In this document: positions 50,740 through 60,640 of the stretch, piece after piece
Numbering within the stretch: the first letter of the stretch is position 1
How the letters are laid out: each line of letters opens with the position of its first letter
NCBI RefSeq assembly: GCF_003096835.1
Contig: NZ_QENZ01000003.1
Location: forward strand, 558,001 to 622,000
DNA length: 64,000 bases
Origin: Balneicella halophila
Lineage (GTDB): Bacteria > Bacteroidota > Bacteroidia > Bacteroidales > Balneicellaceae
Reading direction: 5' to 3'
Notes under the pieces: generated by a model
What the model was told of the DNA's origin: nothing
The model's database searches: none
Seen by the model: the letters and a program-made list of their open reading frames with translations, nothing else
Made by a program: the position numbers and the translations under genes

Positions 50740-53709
50740 TTAAAAATTATCGTACCATGAGTCTCTTTTCTGTAATTTTAAATCTTTCAAAAGAGTAGAC
50801 TTAACACCAATATGGAAGCTGAAGCTTTGTCTTTGTCCAAAAGGAATTGCAGAGAACCTCATTTCCCAACAATGTAAATCTCTAAAAACTGAGAAGCTAG
50901 TAGTCGTTACTTCACTTTGGCTAAAGTCGTATCCTGTACTTACTGAAACTTTCCATTTAGGCGTTATACTTACATCACCAGATAATCTTAAATATTGTGA
51001 GGTATTGGCTTTGTCTCTTGGTTTTGTATATTGGAAATTGTAGTCTAAACGAACAGACCATGGAATGTCAAAATCAACATATTCATTAATGTCGTTAAAT
51101 GTTTCAACATCATTGAGGTCTCCGAATACCTCGTCGCCACCGATTACCCCATCATTTACAGCATCTACATCATTCGGAGGTGTATTGTTATCAGTTCCTT
51201 TTGATTTAAATGTATCTCCATTAAATGCAGTTCCGACAGAAAAACCAGCGCTTGTCAAGCGTCCTAAACCTCCTGCAAATTTATTAATTCGTACACCTGC
51301 TTCATCTATAGCATACGGATCAATGGATCCAGACATTTGTACATTTACTTTATTATTAAAGAGAGAAGTTCTTCCTGATAAACTAATATTGCTAAAATTC
51401 ATAGAATCTCTAAAAACATCATAGCTAGTACTAAGTCGGAAACTTTCAAGAAGCTTAATTTTTTTCAGATCTTCATTGCTAGTGGTATCATCTGTGTTGC
51501 GAACTTTCATTTCAATATTATTATCCAAACTAAAGTTGATATAACCAGACTGCATAGCCTTCTGTGGCACACCATACACCCCTTGTGACAAAATATTGTA
51601 TCGAATAAGCTCATCACTTACATTATTATCAAATGAACGGAATAATCTATCATTTTCAATTCCCAGGTCAGGAGTATAACTGAACGACAATGATGGACTT
51701 AGTACGTGGCGTATTGCCTGAACTTTGCTGTCTTTCTTGAAATTATACATACCAAAGTATTTTGGAGTATAAGAGACAGATGTGTTAGTAGTAAAATTGT
51801 GTGCATACTGCAGTCCGTCGATAGTGTCATTAACGACCTTGTCCAGCATGGGGTCATAACTTTTTCGTATAGAGTTTATATATGCGACCGCACTATATCT
51901 TACATTGGCAGAGAACGTTAAATCTTTAGCTAGCTTATAGGAAGCGCCTATGGGTATATCATGCTTGAAACCGTTTCTCCAATCACGCTTAAGATCTGAT
52001 TTAAAAAGTTTATCTTCATGCGTGCGAATGGTGTTAGTGAGTCTGGCATTATAGCTTACACTAATCATATCATACCACTTTAATTCTCCTACTCTCTCTT
52101 TCGATCGGAATGGATATTGGGTTTGCATAGAAAAACTCACATTGGGCAGAGTAAGACTAATCGTTGTGTCTCTTCTATTTTGCGAATGTTGTAGAGCAAC
52201 ACTCAGGTTGAAAGGACTATCAGGCCATCTGCGACTATAGGAGACACTAGACTGTTTTGTACTATTTACAATGTTTTCAATAGAGCGAGCATTTCTATAA
52301 TCATTTTCAGAAGTTGAAATGTTTACTGAAGCGCTCAAGGTTCTATAGGGATGTGCTTTACTGTCCTGTGAGTGTGTCCACCTCAAGGAAAAGTCTTTAG
52401 TTTTTCTATAATCATCTAATCCTTTATCACCAAATTGATTCATTGCGTAGGAAAAATTAAATCGACCATTATATCGATATCTTTTTTTGTAGGTTGTGTT
52501 GGTATTTACTTCCCAAGAACCATTTGTATAAATACTACCATTCAGCCTGAGGTCATAATAGTCATTTATGGCCCAATAATAGCCGAAGTCACGAAAGTAA
52601 AATCCTCTTGTTTTCTCCTCTCCAAAAGAAGGAATAATAATCCCAGAAGAATATCTTTTTTTCAGTGGGAATAAACCAAAAGGTAAGCCTAAAGGAGTGG
52701 GCACACCTTCAATAACAAGATTTGCTGGTCCTGTGATAACTTTATCATCCTTTATCATTTTTGCCTTCTTTAGCTTAATGTAATAATGTGGATGATCATG
52801 ATTGTCACAAGTTGTATAGCGCCCGTCTTTAAGGAAAAAAGTGTCTTCTGCAATACGTTTAGAAACATCGCTTCGTATATAGCCTTCTCCTTCTTTAGTA
52901 AGTATATCCTTGACCACCGCTTTTTTGGATTTTATATTGTAAGACATCTTTTGAACTTCATATTCGCTTTGCCTGTCCTTAAAAACAGGATAGCCAATTT
53001 CATTATCAGCTGTGTCTAATCCATAGTTTGCATGTACCAGATTTTTTTGGATATCTACCTCAATATAGTATGCATTTATTTGTTGTTCTTGGGTTTTTAC
53101 TTGTGATTCATTGAACATTTGCATTTTTTCAGACTCTAAGTTTATTTTAATAGAGTCTGTTGCTTGATAATCAATAGGAGAGCTAAAGCTGGTATTCTTG
53201 TTAGAATCTGCACTCAAAGTAGAGCTTGCAGTCGATGATGCGGTACTAGAAACAGCGGAGCCATCTATAGCAAGTTCATTGGTCTCAGAAGTAGTAATTG
53301 TCTTTAAGTCTTGGTCGCCAGTTTCTGGGATGACGAATGTAGTGTCGACAGATACAGTACTGGTCTGTGAGCTTGTAGTTTTGGAATAAACATCCGAGAG
53401 TTCAGTTGTATTGGTTGATAAATCGTTATCACTAGTGGTTTCAGAGACTTGTTGTGTGTTTTGAGTGAAAGCGCCATTTTCGATCTTGGTGCTATCAATA
53501 CTCACAGTACTCGAATATAGAGCTGAAGGAGGTGCTATACTTATGTTTGCATCAACTAATGTGTCTGTTCCCAATTTGGTACTATCAATATTAGATAGTT
53601 TATCCTTGGAAATTTGAGTCATAGCTTTTTTGTTTGTTGTAGAACAACAGATTAATGTCAAACAACAAGCAATAACTAGCAAGAAAATATGTACGCTTTT
53701 CAAAAACAA
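50740..53709 (-). CDS. lptD: LPS-assembly protein LptD-like outer-membrane protein
   Basis: A 989-residue outer-membrane protein. The N-terminus carries a signal and lipobox-like region (LLVIACCLTLICC), then a Ser/Thr-rich low-complexity linker (about 40-165). The OstA/LptA-like beta-jellyroll follows (about 185-290: YYIEVDIQKNLVHANYG, VQKMSYNIKSKKAVVKDILTKEGEG), then a long beta-barrel (about 300-989) with many alternating strands and a terminal motif. LptD inserts LPS in the outer leaflet. The Bacteroidota version differs from the proteobacterial protein, so the match is by domain order. It heads the lptD-ridA-antiporter-SLBB run and diverges from the amidase gene. Confidence 0.82.
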   Translation of the reverse strand: MFLKSVHIFLLVIACCLTLICCSTTNKKAMTQISKDKLSNIDSTKLGTDTLVDANISIAPPSALYSSTVSIDSTKIENGAFTQNTQQVSETTSDNDLSTNTTELSDVYSKTTSSQTSTVSVDTTFVIPETGDQDLKTITTSETNELAIDGSAVSSTASSTASSTLSADSNKNTSFSSPIDYQATDSIKINLESEKMQMFNESQVKTQEQQINAYYIEVDIQKNLVHANYGLDTADNEIGYPVFKDRQSEYEVQKMSYNIKSKKAVVKDILTKEGEGYIRSDVSKRIAEDTFFLKDGRYTTCDNHDHPHYYIKLKKAKMIKDDKVITGPANLVIEGVPTPLGLPFGLFPLKKRYSSGIIIPSFGEEKTRGFYFRDFGYYWAINDYYDLRLNGSIYTNGSWEVNTNTTYKKRYRYNGRFNFSYAMNQFGDKGLDDYRKTKDFSLRWTHSQDSKAHPYRTLSASVNISTSENDYRNARSIENIVNSTKQSSVSYSRRWPDSPFNLSVALQHSQNRRDTTISLTLPNVSFSMQTQYPFRSKERVGELKWYDMISVSYNARLTNTIRTHEDKLFKSDLKRDWRNGFKHDIPIGASYKLAKDLTFSANVRYSAVAYINSIRKSYDPMLDKVVNDTIDGLQYAHNFTTNTSVSYTPKYFGMYNFKKDSKVQAIRHVLSPSLSFSYTPDLGIENDRLFRSFDNNVSDELIRYNILSQGVYGVPQKAMQSGYINFSLDNNIEMKVRNTDDTTSNEDLKKIKLLESFRLSTSYDVFRDSMNFSNISLSGRTSLFNNKVNVQMSGSIDPYAIDEAGVRINKFAGGLGRLTSAGFSVGTAFNGDTFKSKGTDNNTPPNDVDAVNDGVIGGDEVFGDLNDVETFNDINEYVDFDIPWSVRLDYNFQYTKPRDKANTSQYLRLSGDVSITPKWKVSVSTGYDFSQSEVTTTSFSVFRDLHCWEMRFSAIPFGQRQSFSFHIGVKSTLLKDLKLQKRDSWYDNF

Positions 53710-53832: not shown

Positions 53833-54936
53833 ATGGTATATAAAAAAATCGGAATAGTTCTATTGTTCTGTTGCTTATTTATGGAGTTTTCTTTTGCACA
53901 AGCAGTCCGGAAGGTTGTTATCGATGCAGGGCATGGTGGTAAGGACTCTGGAACAGTTGCTAGAACACGTAAACATCAGCATGAAAAAGTGATTGCATTG
54001 GCTATAGCTAAGAAAGTAGGACATTATATTGAAAAGAATTTCTCCGATGTAGAAGTTATTTATACCCGAACAAAAGATGTATACTTAACACTGAATCAGC
54101 GTGCAAAAGTAGCCAACAAGGCAGATGCTGATTTGTTTATTTCCATACACGTAGATGCTGTCGGAAGTAGAAGTGTGAGCGGTGCTTCAGTCTATGTTTT
54201 GGGGCTTCATCGCTCTGAAGACAACTTAAAAGTAGCTATGCGAGAAAACGCAGTGATGTTGCAAGAGGAGGATTACAAAACAAAGTATGCAGGGTTTGAC
54301 CCTAAAGATGCAGAATCTTATATAATTTTTAGCTTGATGCAAAATCAGTATTTGAATAATAGCATGACCATGGCTTCGTTTGTGGATAAGCATCTAAAAA
54401 CAAAGACTAAGCGACATACAAAAGGGGTAAAACAAGCTGGGTTCTATGTGTTGCGTGAGGTAGGAATGCCATCAGTTCTGATAGAGACCGGATACATCAC
54501 AAACAGTTCTGATGCAGATTATCTTTGTTCTGCAACAGGTCAAGATAAAACAGCCTATGCAATATATAATGCATTCAGAGATTATAAATCTTTTGTGGAA
54601 AATCATACTACTGATTTAGGCAAAGAAAACATGAGTCAGGAAAAAGTTACTGAAGCAACTATAGGAGATGATGATACTTATTTTACCATACAGTTAGCCT
54701 ACTCAGGAAAAAATCTGACAGAGAATGATCCATATTTCAAAGGACTATCTCCTATTTTCAAGTATAAAAAAGGCAATGGCTATCGATATACCTATGGTCG
54801 AACTAAGAGCTATACTAAGGCACTGTCGTTACAGCAGGAGGCTCGTGCTAAAATCTCCGATGCATATTTGGTTGGCTTTCATCAAGGAGAATTAAATATG
54901 GCCTCAGTGGTAAGAACAATTTTAAACGGGAAATAA
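53833..54936 (+). CDS. N-acetylmuramoyl-L-alanine amidase (Amidase_3) with SPOR-like C-terminus
   Basis: A 367-residue exported zinc amidase that cuts the amide bond between muramic acid and the stem peptide. After a signal peptide (to about residue 22) the Amidase_3 domain shows VVIDAGHGGKDSG (His/Glu ligands), HEKVIALAIAKKVG, SIHVDAVGS and the late catalytic VLIETGYITNSSDADYL. A C-terminal segment from about residue 283 (YFTIQLAYSG, FKG, KKGNGYRYTYG) looks like a SPOR-type domain and is shared with the next gene. An in-frame GTG at 53827 is less likely than the ATG at 53833. Confidence 0.93.
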   Translation: MVYKKIGIVLLFCCLFMEFSFAQAVRKVVIDAGHGGKDSGTVARTRKHQHEKVIALAIAKKVGHYIEKNFSDVEVIYTRTKDVYLTLNQRAKVANKADADLFISIHVDAVGSRSVSGASVYVLGLHRSEDNLKVAMRENAVMLQEEDYKTKYAGFDPKDAESYIIFSLMQNQYLNNSMTMASFVDKHLKTKTKRHTKGVKQAGFYVLREVGMPSVLIETGYITNSSDADYLCSATGQDKTAYAIYNAFRDYKSFVENHTTDLGKENMSQEKVTEATIGDDDTYFTIQLAYSGKNLTENDPYFKGLSPIFKYKKGNGYRYTYGRTKSYTKALSLQQEARAKISDAYLVGFHQGELNMASVVRTILNGK

Positions 54937-54954
54937 AAAATCCAATAGCTTCAT

Positions 54955-54962
54955 TATCTTTG
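54955..54962 (+). promoter_or_regulatory. -7 promoter element for the MlaD gene
   Basis: TATCTTTG, a perfect TAnnTTTG match 53 bases before the MlaD ATG. Confidence 0.5.
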
Positions 54963-55015
54963 TAAGATATTAGTAAAGTATTTATACAAAATAGTACCTA
55001 CGAAAAAATAGTTTT

Positions 55016-56227
55016 ATGAAAAAGAATGTCATAACAGGAATAGTTGTAGTAGTTGCTTTAGTCTTGTTTTTCTTCGGATTTAATTTTCTGAAAGGTAAAA
55101 ACATTTTCTTTAGTGATAATATTTTCCATGCAATTTATACCCATGTAGATGGATTGAAAAAATCAAGTAAGGTTACCATTCGCGGTTATAAGGTAGGAGA
55201 AGTTCAAGAAGTTGCTTTCACAAGCGAGAGAGCAGATTTATTAATGGTTTCTTTCTCTGTATCAAGCGACTATAAGATACCTAAAGGCACAATCGCACAA
55301 ATTATAACAACAGACATAATGGGTTCACGCTCTCTAGAGTTGCGTTTACCTCCTGAGGCTGAATTTGGGTATCTAGTTTCTGGGGACACTTTGGATGGAG
55401 GAATGTCAAAAGGACTCAAAGAAGAAGTGAGTGCACAGGTACGTCCGTTGAAGGCGAAAGCCCAAGAATTGATGGGCTCATTAGATTCTATCTTAAATGC
55501 AACCCAAGCTGTTTTAGGTAAGGATTCTCAAAGAAGTCTTATTGCAAGTATTGAAAATATGGAGAAAACATTTCGGAATCTTAAAAATGCTACAGGAAGT
55601 TTAGAGGAAGTAATGACAGGTGAAGAGCAGAATATGAGAAGTATTTTGCAGAATCTTTCGGATATTACCCAAAATCTAAATCAAAATCAGGATAGAATAA
55701 ATCGCATACTTTCGAATGTGTCGTCATTTACGGACACTTTGGCACAAGCTGATTTCACAGGGACTTTATTAGAAGCACAGACTGCAATAAAACAATTTAC
55801 CGGATTAGTGAGAAAAATTGAAGCAGGAGAAGGTACTGTTGGTGCATTGCTGAATGACAAACAGTTGTATGATGAGTTGGAAACAGCGGCAGCCAGTCTC
55901 GGTCGCCTAACTACAGACTTGAGAATGAATCCTAAAAAGTATGTGCAATTCTCGTTACTAAATACAGGTCGTACGGTTTATTGTGAGGGGCAAGGTCCTA
56001 ACAGCAGTGATAAAATTTATCGCATACAATTATATCATTCCTCAACTCCAGTAAATCTGAATAACCCGATATTTAAGGGGCGTGATGATGTTATGCAAAT
56101 TCAAAATAAAAAAGGCGATTATCTTTATACTATTGGTTACACCTCAGACTATGAACAGTTGCAGGATATCTTAAAGAAATTACGAAAAGATTTTCCTGAT
56201 GCTTTTATTATTGAGGATAAGCAGTAA
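55016..56227 (+). CDS. MlaD/MCE family lipid-transport protein with SPOR-like C-terminus
   Basis: A 403-residue inner-membrane-anchored protein: one N-terminal helix (VITGIVVVVALVLFFFGFNFL), an MCE domain (about 33-120, HVDGLKKSSKVTIRGYKVGEV, TDIMGSRSLELRLP), and a long helical region (about 130-320) that likely forms the tube seen in long MCE proteins. MCE proteins shuttle phospholipids between the membranes. The last 70 residues (from about 335, YRIQLYHSS, NPIFKG, KKGDYLYTIGYT, DAFII) match the C-terminal domain of the neighbouring amidase. The permease and ATPase partners (MlaE, MlaF) are not in the window. Confidence 0.9.
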   Translation: MKKNVITGIVVVVALVLFFFGFNFLKGKNIFFSDNIFHAIYTHVDGLKKSSKVTIRGYKVGEVQEVAFTSERADLLMVSFSVSSDYKIPKGTIAQIITTDIMGSRSLELRLPPEAEFGYLVSGDTLDGGMSKGLKEEVSAQVRPLKAKAQELMGSLDSILNATQAVLGKDSQRSLIASIENMEKTFRNLKNATGSLEEVMTGEEQNMRSILQNLSDITQNLNQNQDRINRILSNVSSFTDTLAQADFTGTLLEAQTAIKQFTGLVRKIEAGEGTVGALLNDKQLYDELETAAASLGRLTTDLRMNPKKYVQFSLLNTGRTVYCEGQGPNSSDKIYRIQLYHSSTPVNLNNPIFKGRDDVMQIQNKKGDYLYTIGYTSDYEQLQDILKKLRKDFPDAFIIEDKQ

Positions 56228-58558: not shown

Positions 58559-60640
58559 ATGGATGCTCAAACAACTAGTAACGACTTTACAGGTATTAGT
58601 GAAGACTTAATTTTTAAAACATCGGGTACGCCTTTTGCTCTTTTTGAAGAATTAGGAGGTACAGCAGGAGACAGCGATGCCATTCTTGGAGAAGGTACTC
58701 ATATGATAGAATATGTTAATTCATATAGTGCTGATAATAGTATGAACAACAGGAATGCTATATTTAGTACAAGTGGTAAAAATATTGTTATTAATACCTA
58801 TGCTTCACGGTTAACAGGTAATGATGATACACAAGGTGCATCTTTTGCTGTGGTATTATATTGTGATACTGCTGATGATGGAATACCAAATTATTTAGAT
58901 TTAGATTCAGATAACGATGAATGTCCAGATGCTATTGAAGGAGGAACGAATGATGAGACAGACCCAATCAGAAGTAACTTGGCAAAAGCAACCGGAATTG
59001 TAAACGATGGCAATAATGATATTGTAACTGAAAACTTATGCGGAGGTACAGATTGTGTAACTACTGATGGTATTCCTTTAAATAACTCACAACCTATAAG
59101 TCAAATTGTAGGTGGTTCACAAGAATCAGCAAGCTTTACAGTTGCTAATGATCTTCAAAATCAAACAGTTTGCGAAGGAAGTGAAGCTACATTTACAGCA
59201 ACTATAAGTGTGAGTAGTGACTTTATTACTACCTATGATTACCAGTTACAAGTATCTGCAGATTCCGGAAGCACGTGGACAGATGTTGCTGGTCAATCAG
59301 GAACTGACGAAATAAGTGTTTTTACTCTAGACGTAAGCATCCCATCTGTAACAGCTGATATGAATAACAACCTTTATCGCATCTTCTATAATAATTCTGC
59401 TAATACTTGTGGTGGCTATACTAATGCAGCAAAATTAACAGTGAAAGATTTGCCTGCTACACCTACATTAAGCACTGCTGTGCAGCCAAGTTGTGATAAT
59501 GTTAGCGGTACATTTACTATTGATATGAGTGCTTATGCAGGAGAAAAGTTTAAATTCAACATCCAACCTTCTGATGGAGCGAGAATTGATATTACTACAG
59601 GAGCCTTTACAGATTATACTGTAGGTACTACGTATTCAATTACAGCAACTACGCATAATTGTATAAGTGATGCATTTGAGTTTACAGTGAATCAAATAAC
59701 AAATAAAGATTGTAAGTCAGATGAACCAACGATAGATGATCCAACAGAGGGAGATGATACAGTAACAGGAGGAGGAAATCCAGGTTCAGAGATTGTGGTA
59801 ACCTTCCCAGACGGAGGCGTTGTCACAACAACAGTAGATGAAGATGGAAATTGGGAGGTAGATGTACCGGATGGAGAAGATTTAACACCAGGAGAAACTG
59901 TAACAGCAACGCAAACAGATCCAGGTAAAGATCCGAGTGATGAAGTTACAGGAACAGTACAGTAGCCTGAAGATCCTTGTGATATTGATCCAACAAGACC
60001 AGAGTGTGATTTTGATGGTGATGGAATTCCAAATAATGAAGATCCTGATGATGACAATGACGGAGTCAGTGATGCTGATGAAGATATCATTGGAACAGAT
60101 CCATTTAATCCTGATACTGATGGTGATGGAGTCTCCGACGGAGATGAAGATGCTGATGGAGATGGAACTTCAAATGCTGATGAATCTGATGAAACATTAG
60201 ACGAGCCAACTGATGAAAATGGAGATGGAGTACCTGATATTATTGATCCATGTTATCCAAATGCTTTTGGACCTGATTGTGAATGTACGAAATTGCAACA
60301 AACGATGATGGACAATATACCACAAATCATATCACAAAATAATGATGGTAAGAATGATGAGTGGAACTTAGAAGATCTGAAAACGTATTATGAAAAATGC
60401 TTAGTAGGTGATGAAATTCTAAGAAATAAGGTAATTGTCTTCAACAGATGGGGAGCAAAAGTGTATGAGAAAGAAAACTATATGTTAGACTCAGAACGCT
60501 TTCGTGGGGAATCTGATAACAGTATAGATTTCAAAGATGACAAGCTATTGCCAGCAGGTACTTACTTCTATATTTTGAAAGTGGAAGGCTTTAATGACAA
60601 GACTGGTTACTTATATATTCTAAGTGAAGAAGATAAGTAG
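58559..60640 (+). pseudogene. Disrupted T9SS type B sorting-domain protein
   Basis: One reading frame runs from 58559 to 60640 but is broken by an in-frame TAG at 59963-59965. Before the stop: a repetitive secreted-protein region with a DSDNDECPDAIEG calcium-type motif, beta-sandwich segments, and an Ig-like repeat (GNPGSEIVVTFPDGG). After the stop, still in frame: thrombospondin type 3-like Asp repeats (DFDGDGIPNNEDPDDDNDG) and a C-terminal gliding-associated/type B sorting domain (VIVFNRWGAKVYEKENY, then LPAGTYFYILKV). There is no signal peptide and the frame closes 10 bases upstream of the ATG, so the 5' end is lost too. This looks like a decayed surface adhesin. Stop-codon readthrough is an unlikely alternative. 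Confidence 0.8.

Follow-up and report, generated by a model that had tools for sequence, protein, structure and literature searches.

Transport of lipids between the membranes of the bacterial envelope raises a general issue, namely how the transporting complexes get across the peptidoglycan or fasten to it, and whether their activity is coordinated with wall remodelling. The window analyzed here, a stretch of 64,000 nucleotides from the genome of Balneicella halophila, poses this in a specific form, as the gene for an N-acetylmuramoyl-L-alanine amidase is followed directly by that of an MlaD protein of the MCE family, and both proteins end in what appears to be the same domain. SPOR domains bind denuded glycan, which is the product of amidases (PMC6895207, in the extract available). 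We have asked whether the two C-terminal tails are related, whether they are SPOR domains, how widely MlaD proteins carry such a tail, and what it might do there. Because an MCE protein here shares a domain with the adjacent amidase, and this tail could be removed with the MCE part intact, a direct test of its role is possible.

The amidase-mlaD locus

The features of the locus are shown in Table 1. The amidase and mlaD genes are separated by 79 bases on the forward strand, with lepA downstream of mlaD and a divergent gene for an LptD-like protein upstream of the amidase. The N-terminus of the amidase has a hydrophobic stretch that, judged by eye, resembles a Sec signal, and the genome has another Amidase_3 gene at a different locus. 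MlaD is the single PF02470 match in this genome, which is 98.2% complete, and the one MlaE match is away from mlaD on contig C4, with an ABC_tran ATPase gene adjacent to it. A scan for promoters and terminators, which is uninformative on operon structure, found two promoter-like sites (10.1 in shuffled sequences) and three terminator-like sites (1.4 in shuffled sequences), none of the latter between amidase and mlaD. We also note that the ORFs at 58559-59965 and 59937-60200 resemble an adhesin-type protein with DSDND-like repeats and a possible frame change.

Table 1. Features of the amidase-mlaD locus, in window coordinates.
Feature	Position	Strand	Basis
N-acetylmuramoyl-L-alanine amidase, 369 aa	53827..54936	+	ORF; PF01520 Amidase_3, 171.2 bits, residues 30-249
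Predicted SPOR-type C-terminal domain of amidase, residues 283-356	54673..54894	+	Alignment, profiles, AlphaFold2, residue counts
MlaD / MCE-family protein, 403 aa	55016..56227	+	ORF; PF02470, 48.8 bits (cut-off 25.1)
MCE domain of MlaD, residues 38-110	55127..55345	+	PF02470 match range
Normal MlaD core end NPKKYVQFSL, residues 305-314	55928..55957	+	Alignment of MlaDs, tail lengths
Predicted SPOR-type C-terminal domain of MlaD, residues 331-400	56006..56215	+	Alignment, profiles, AlphaFold2, residue counts
LptD-like protein	50740..53709	-	PF19838 LptD_2, 559 bits; divergent from amidase

The amidase and MlaD tails are homologous

An earlier note on this DNA, made from the sequence alone, described a pattern shared in the same order by the two tails (54679-56224), and this description is right except for one residue near the KKG motif. 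Amidase residues 283-349 align with MlaD residues 332-399 with two gaps, of two residues and one residue, both around this motif, where the amidase reads KKGNGYRYT and MlaD reads KKGD-YLYT. The local BLOSUM62 score of this alignment is 92. When the MlaD tail was shuffled 5000 times, the best score obtained was 55 (mean 25.3, sd 4.5).

Comparison of profiles bears out the similarity. The MlaD tail was used as a query across the order, where 112 of 198 genomes were matched, and loci were then fetched. From these, one profile was built with 13 tails of MlaD and another with 64 tails of the amidase, each including the window's own sequence. The two profiles match with a probability of 99.9% and an E value of 2.5e-34 over 87 columns, and the score of 175 compares with at most 14.4, and a probability of at most 1.1%, in 60 column-shuffled controls. 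The two proteins are homologous over their last 70 to 80 or so residues. The window's two tails are just about 29% identical and both fall below the Pfam SPOR cut-off, as might be expected of chance similarity or of convergence on a common beta-alpha motif, but with no shuffle reaching the score and the profile controls flat, chance is ruled out and we regard this explanation as having almost no probability.

The tails as SPOR domains: sequence profiles and best structural matches

Profile matches, together with the first-ranked fold match, identify both tails as SPOR domains, as the earlier note had supposed, although of an amidase-type subfamily that is mostly missed by Pfam. When compared to 30 sequences from the same order that Pfam does recognize as SPOR, the probability of the match is 89% for the MlaD tails (E 2e-6) and 94% for those of the amidase (E 9e-8); the matches cover the second half of the tails, and shuffled controls give at most 2.8%. 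In the PDB, the best profile match of both is 1x60, the SPOR domain of CwlC, itself an amidase (E 0.0055 for MlaD and 0.016 for the amidase), and the next entries are unrelated, with E values of 0.13 and 0.18 respectively. The MlaD-tail profile is nearer to the amidase subfamily (E 2.5e-34) than to other SPOR domains (E 2e-6).

Searches with single sequences behave differently from those with profiles. Relative to the Pfam SPOR cut-off of 21 bits, the excised MlaD tail of the window scores 17.8-18.0 and the whole MlaD 13.8, and no Pfam SPOR match was seen on the window's amidase tail, so that single-sequence Pfam searches of the two proteins would have missed the domain. At E ≤ 1, Pfam SPOR matches 3 of the 13 MlaD tails (best 3.4e-6) and 32 of the 64 amidase tails (best 9.8e-7), and when 43 tailed MlaDs are searched at full length, just two have it at E ≤ 0.001. 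There is no SPOR model among the ten NCBIfam models listed for tailed MlaDs at E ≤ 0.001. Since this subfamily is common in the order and largely missed by Pfam, wall-binding modules on other proteins there may likewise be overlooked.

AlphaFold2 models of the MlaD and amidase tails (pLDDT 88.9 and 92.3) are predicted to have the same order of elements, with a strand, a three-residue helix, two strands, a helix, and a final strand. Both predicted tails pick the same structure first in Foldseek, and this is again 1x60, with a probability of 1.00, TM 0.69 and E 2.7e-3 for MlaD, and 0.99, TM 0.60/0.68 and E 0.13 for the amidase; neither model has a match at E ≤ 0.001. Using VIA-align, the MlaD tail matches the SPOR domains of RlpA, CwlC, DamX and DedD at Z 5.5-6.7, and the amidase tail those of CwlC, RlpA and DedD at Z 5.1-7.3, scores which VIA-align rates as middling and after which the next rows stand at Z 4.3 and 4.8. 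The SPOR domain of FtsN gives Z 3.2 with the MlaD tail, and a family's absence among the VIA-align rows is no evidence either way. One structure, 6ozd, outranks the SPOR structures for the MlaD tail (Z 8.1), albeit with a title that names no SPOR protein. Residues 76-167 of 6ozd, which is titled putative exported protein, also rank second when the amidase tail is compared (Z 7.2), and 6ozd may hold an unannotated SPOR-like domain.

Known SPOR domains (PF05036; CwlC, RlpA, DamX, DedD, FtsN) are likewise C-terminal in envelope proteins and about 75 residues long. Their fold is RNP-like, with a sheet and two helices, and the modelled tails have the four strands and helix 2 in SPOR order, whereas just three residues are left of helix 1 in both. 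The stretch following strand 1 (consensus SSxxPIPxxSxxFKG) also sets the tails apart, as the 30 Pfam-SPOR sequences show nothing equivalent in their consensus.

We note several other proteins with SPOR-type domains. One of the three Pfam-SPOR proteins of the window's genome (L002:1486-2481) has SPOR together with two prokaryotic HU-CCDC81 domains, so that a domain with a DNA-binding-type name is joined to a wall-binding one. Large PD40-repeat proteins ending in one to several tails occur in other genomes of the order, at L219:17-2632, L220:1902-4655, L222:57-3092, L223:356-6400 and L224:1971-5342; their tails are of the same subfamily as those of the amidase and MlaD, and their N-terminal parts are unrelated. 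Those of L219, L220 and L224 also have an OmpA domain, those of L222 and L223 are without it, and some have TPR matches. This mixture of domains is reminiscent of PorE-like proteins of type IX secretion. Two more proteins (L074:3759-5261 and L088:2881-4482; 501 and 534 aa from stop to stop) have an amidase-type SPOR tail, at 92 and 80 bits, and match no Pfam family at E ≤ 0.01.

Glycan-contact residues

The contacts of RlpA to denuded glycan involve Q270, R302 and R309 as well as the main chain; the equivalents of Q270 and R309 in FtsN are Q251 and R285, and the basic patch of a SPOR domain can be made of other residues (PMC6895207, in the extract available). We determined by sequence alignment which residues occupy the positions of RlpA Q270 and R309 in 146 amidase tails and 43 MlaD tails, the latter including that of the window. 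The Gln is present in 145 amidase tails and 27 MlaD tails, and a Lys or Arg at the second position in 144 and 19. Both are found together in 143 of the amidase tails, as against 19 of the MlaD tails. The window's amidase has both (Q289 and R320), and its MlaD keeps Q338 and has L370 at the basic position. The tyrosine that follows this position (Y371) is present in all 43 MlaD tails, and other core positions are near-invariant.

Because the SPOR Gln and basic residue, which they share with known SPOR domains, are near-universal in them, the amidase tails look like working SPOR domains. The MlaD tail seems to be relaxed in part of its presumed binding face and constrained elsewhere.

Distribution of the MlaD tail

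The MlaD tail is an add-on behind the normal end of the core. Untailed MlaDs of the order stop 11-42 residues past the position of window residue 305, typically with NPKRYVHFS and a few more residues, and tailed ones extend at least 99 residues past it; one row of 24 residues among these lengths is a partial ORF. A profile of tailed MlaDs matches in 382 of 392 genomes of the order, and in at least 40 of the 392, window included, the match reaches the tail (profile position ≥415). These 40 belong to 13 family codes, and six of them are read through one TAA, as is the window at its own end; two further tailed family codes come from G175 and G343. Every searched genome is tailed in families f96, f114 and f86 (six genomes each), f139 (five), f122 (three) and f123 (two), and the window's family consists of one genome.

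The fusion has also been surveyed across the class, where MlaD matches were found in 391 of 396 genomes. Among the matches listed, just the window and G175, both of the same order, enter the tail, and those outside the order end at profile position 365 or before. The tail is likewise missing from all 29 MlaDs that were retrieved from the remaining orders of the class. In a scan of named genomes 35 of 80 loci are tailed, which is not a frequency because the loci are the best matches ranked by likeness to the window; records with tailed MlaDs include Odoribacter laneus and O. lunatus (Bacteroidales), Culturomica and Salinivirgaceae. These relatives, and MlaD proteins that are identical between genomes of the order and named Bacteroidetes records, point to Bacteroidales as the order in question. 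SPOR on MlaD is a real and lineage-limited domain architecture.

Pairing of amidase and mlaD

The amidase is directly upstream of mlaD in 73 of 80 loci that were fetched by MlaD, and all 73 of these amidases are tailed. Of the other seven loci, L165, L193 and L213 are at a contig edge, and L136, L152, L194 and L197 have kilobases of amidase-free sequence upstream. The MlaDs of L136 and L152 are tailed, and the upstream sequence fetched for each, which exceeds 4 kb, contains no amidase; these loci provide natural cases for separating the function of the tail from that of a neighbouring amidase.

Among all loci of the order, an adjacent amidase accompanies 37 of the 42 MlaDs with the tail and 83 of the 88 that lack it, a count that leans to tailed amidases because part of the loci were fetched by the tail; two of the adjacency misses (L140 and L054) are overlaps beyond the cut-off. 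The divergent lptD is present at 36 of the 42 tailed and 68 of the 88 untailed loci. Elsewhere in the class, an amidase is found at 24 of 29 loci, and 16 of these amidases are tailed. With so many untailed MlaDs still paired with an amidase, the pairing does not need the tail, and it is wider than the tail on MlaD.

Evolution of the tail

We constructed a tree of 160 MlaD cores, obtained from 167 by merging identical proteins, of which 117 are without the tail. The tail needs ten changes on this tree, at least five of them forced by well-supported branches, with long branches flagged, and grouping of the tailed cores as one clade is rejected (AU p 0.011). An earlier core tree of 59 rows gave seven changes, one of them forced. 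A single clade of MlaD tails is compatible with the tree of the tails themselves (p 0.39), albeit one that is poorly resolved (86 columns, 194 rows). The window's MlaD core groups with an untailed long branch, L013, at a well-supported fork, a placement that we do not trust. Left out of trees and counts were L047 and L053, which duplicate L066 and L067, as well as L063, of which just the partial ORF was omitted from the 59-row tree. Copies of window stretches (L004 and L034-L036) were left out of the later trees and the locus counts, and identical proteins were merged for the tree of the tails and the locus counts as well.

As the tailed cores do not form one clade, there has been more than one loss or gain of the tail. 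Recent copying from the adjacent amidase is not supported, as the tail of its own amidase is the closest for 2 of 39 MlaD tails and in the top tenth for eight, with a median rank fraction of 0.38. An old fusion from an amidase-type SPOR domain followed by losses fits these data, with repeated gains as the alternative. The most likely source of the MlaD tail is the SPOR subfamily of the amidase type, and the closest gene with such a domain is the one directly upstream.

Proposed role of the MlaD tail

A simple explanation, and one that we hold to be somewhat better than an even bet, is that the SPOR tail of MlaD tethers the lipid-transport complex to glycan stripped by amidases. In E. coli MlaD forms hexamers. 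Oligomers of the tailed MlaD, anchored in the membrane, would expose several SPOR domains at the far, C-terminal end of the MCE assembly, and these would grip glycan strands once an amidase has removed the peptides, such that the complex would be enriched and held where the wall opens. This could be at the septum or at local gaps, and septal placement and passage through gaps are thus two versions of the tethering that we envisage. The tail could possibly also coordinate wall cleavage with lipid transport. The homology of the tails, their SPOR-type sequence and predicted fold, the placement of the tail past the core end, and its stable retention within several families all support tethering, as do the tailed amidase next to mlaD in 73 of 80 loci, the compatibility of the MlaD tails with a single clade, and the single MlaD and single MlaE of the genome. 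Counting against it are the many MlaDs of the order that are untailed yet amidase-adjacent, and the contact pair that is kept in fewer than half of MlaD tails; these relaxed contact positions are the main evidence against the simplest form of the tether. Further points against it are the repeated loss or gain of the tail, the window's SPOR scores under the Pfam cut-off, and the structural comparisons, in which Foldseek gives nothing at E ≤ 0.001, 6ozd ranks first for the MlaD tail and FtsN scores low.

The same positions can be read in another way, which we consider possible but appreciably less probable, in that the tail has a SPOR fold without glycan binding and now acts as a structural cap or a protein-interaction module on the MlaD assembly, docking for example to the amidase, to an outer-membrane partner, or to itself. 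Relaxation of the contact residues while Tyr371 is kept throughout would be in keeping with this, as would the co-purification of the E. coli SPOR protein DedD with the lipid-transfer protein YhdP (PMC12977461, in the extract available). However, the Gln is kept in 27 of the 43 MlaD tails, that of the window among them, and much of the glycan recognition by RlpA is through the main chain (PMC6895207, in the extract available), so loss of residues alone is no proof of lost binding.

A wider proposal, which seems to us unlikely although not negligibly so, is that a lipid conduit spans the envelope and has the amidase as its dedicated wall-opener. The enzyme would cut a local gap through which a long MlaD assembly passes, its own SPOR domain would keep it there, and in lineages with a tailed MlaD the SPOR domains at the MlaD tip would clamp the denuded strands around the gap. 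Such an arrangement would explain why amidase and mlaD are neighbours even where MlaD is untailed.

It is improbable that the tail is a functionless by-product, left by an old duplication of the 3' end of the amidase gene onto mlaD and now being lost. The patchy occurrence on the core tree, with its ten changes, at least five of them forced, and 117 of 160 cores untailed, is what such decay could produce, but at least 13 family codes are tailed, in six of them in every genome searched, and Tyr371 is present in 43 of 43 divergent tails in which other core positions are near-invariant. Moreover, the tail is retained in L136 and L152, whose upstream sequence, over 4 kb of it, lacks an amidase.

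Comparison with known systems

The earlier note considered that an MCE protein with a SPOR tail is not standard, and we concur, having found no description of one, and with Pfam SPOR being recognized in so few of the tailed MlaDs. A literature search found no report of a SPOR or peptidoglycan-binding domain fused to MlaD, MCE or Mla proteins, which is weak evidence as it covered few subscription journals. The extract of an MCE domain survey (PMC5561183) deals with gene neighbourhoods in Proteobacteria, and that of PMC8657477 names the MCE domain just in a reference title.

The closest parallel in architecture is MlaD of Veillonella, which has a C-terminal beta-barrel (PMC10665443, in the extract available). 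Like the window's MlaD, it is an MCE protein in which a long linker region leads to an envelope-binding module at the C-terminal end; in Veillonella this is an outer-membrane beta-barrel, whereas it is a predicted SPOR domain here. The extract of the same paper describes a survey in which C-terminal beta-barrels are found on MlaD in other phyla and are wholly absent from the group that holds the Bacteroidetes, and mention of SPOR on MlaD was not found in it.

YhdP and DedD of E. coli offer a second likeness, in which a lipid-transfer protein is physically linked to a SPOR protein, although these are two proteins rather than a fusion, and YhdP is AsmA-like (PMC12977461, in the extract available). 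The same extract reports that YhdP localizes to the poles independently of DedD, and a link to SPOR therefore need not mean septal placement.

SPOR on MlaD combines parts of known kinds in a new architecture, and suggests that lipid transport may be linked to wall cleavage in a way that can be tested. Flagella and secretion systems have dedicated wall hydrolases, and if the amidase were indeed to open the wall for a lipid conduit, it would be the counterpart of these in lipid transport.
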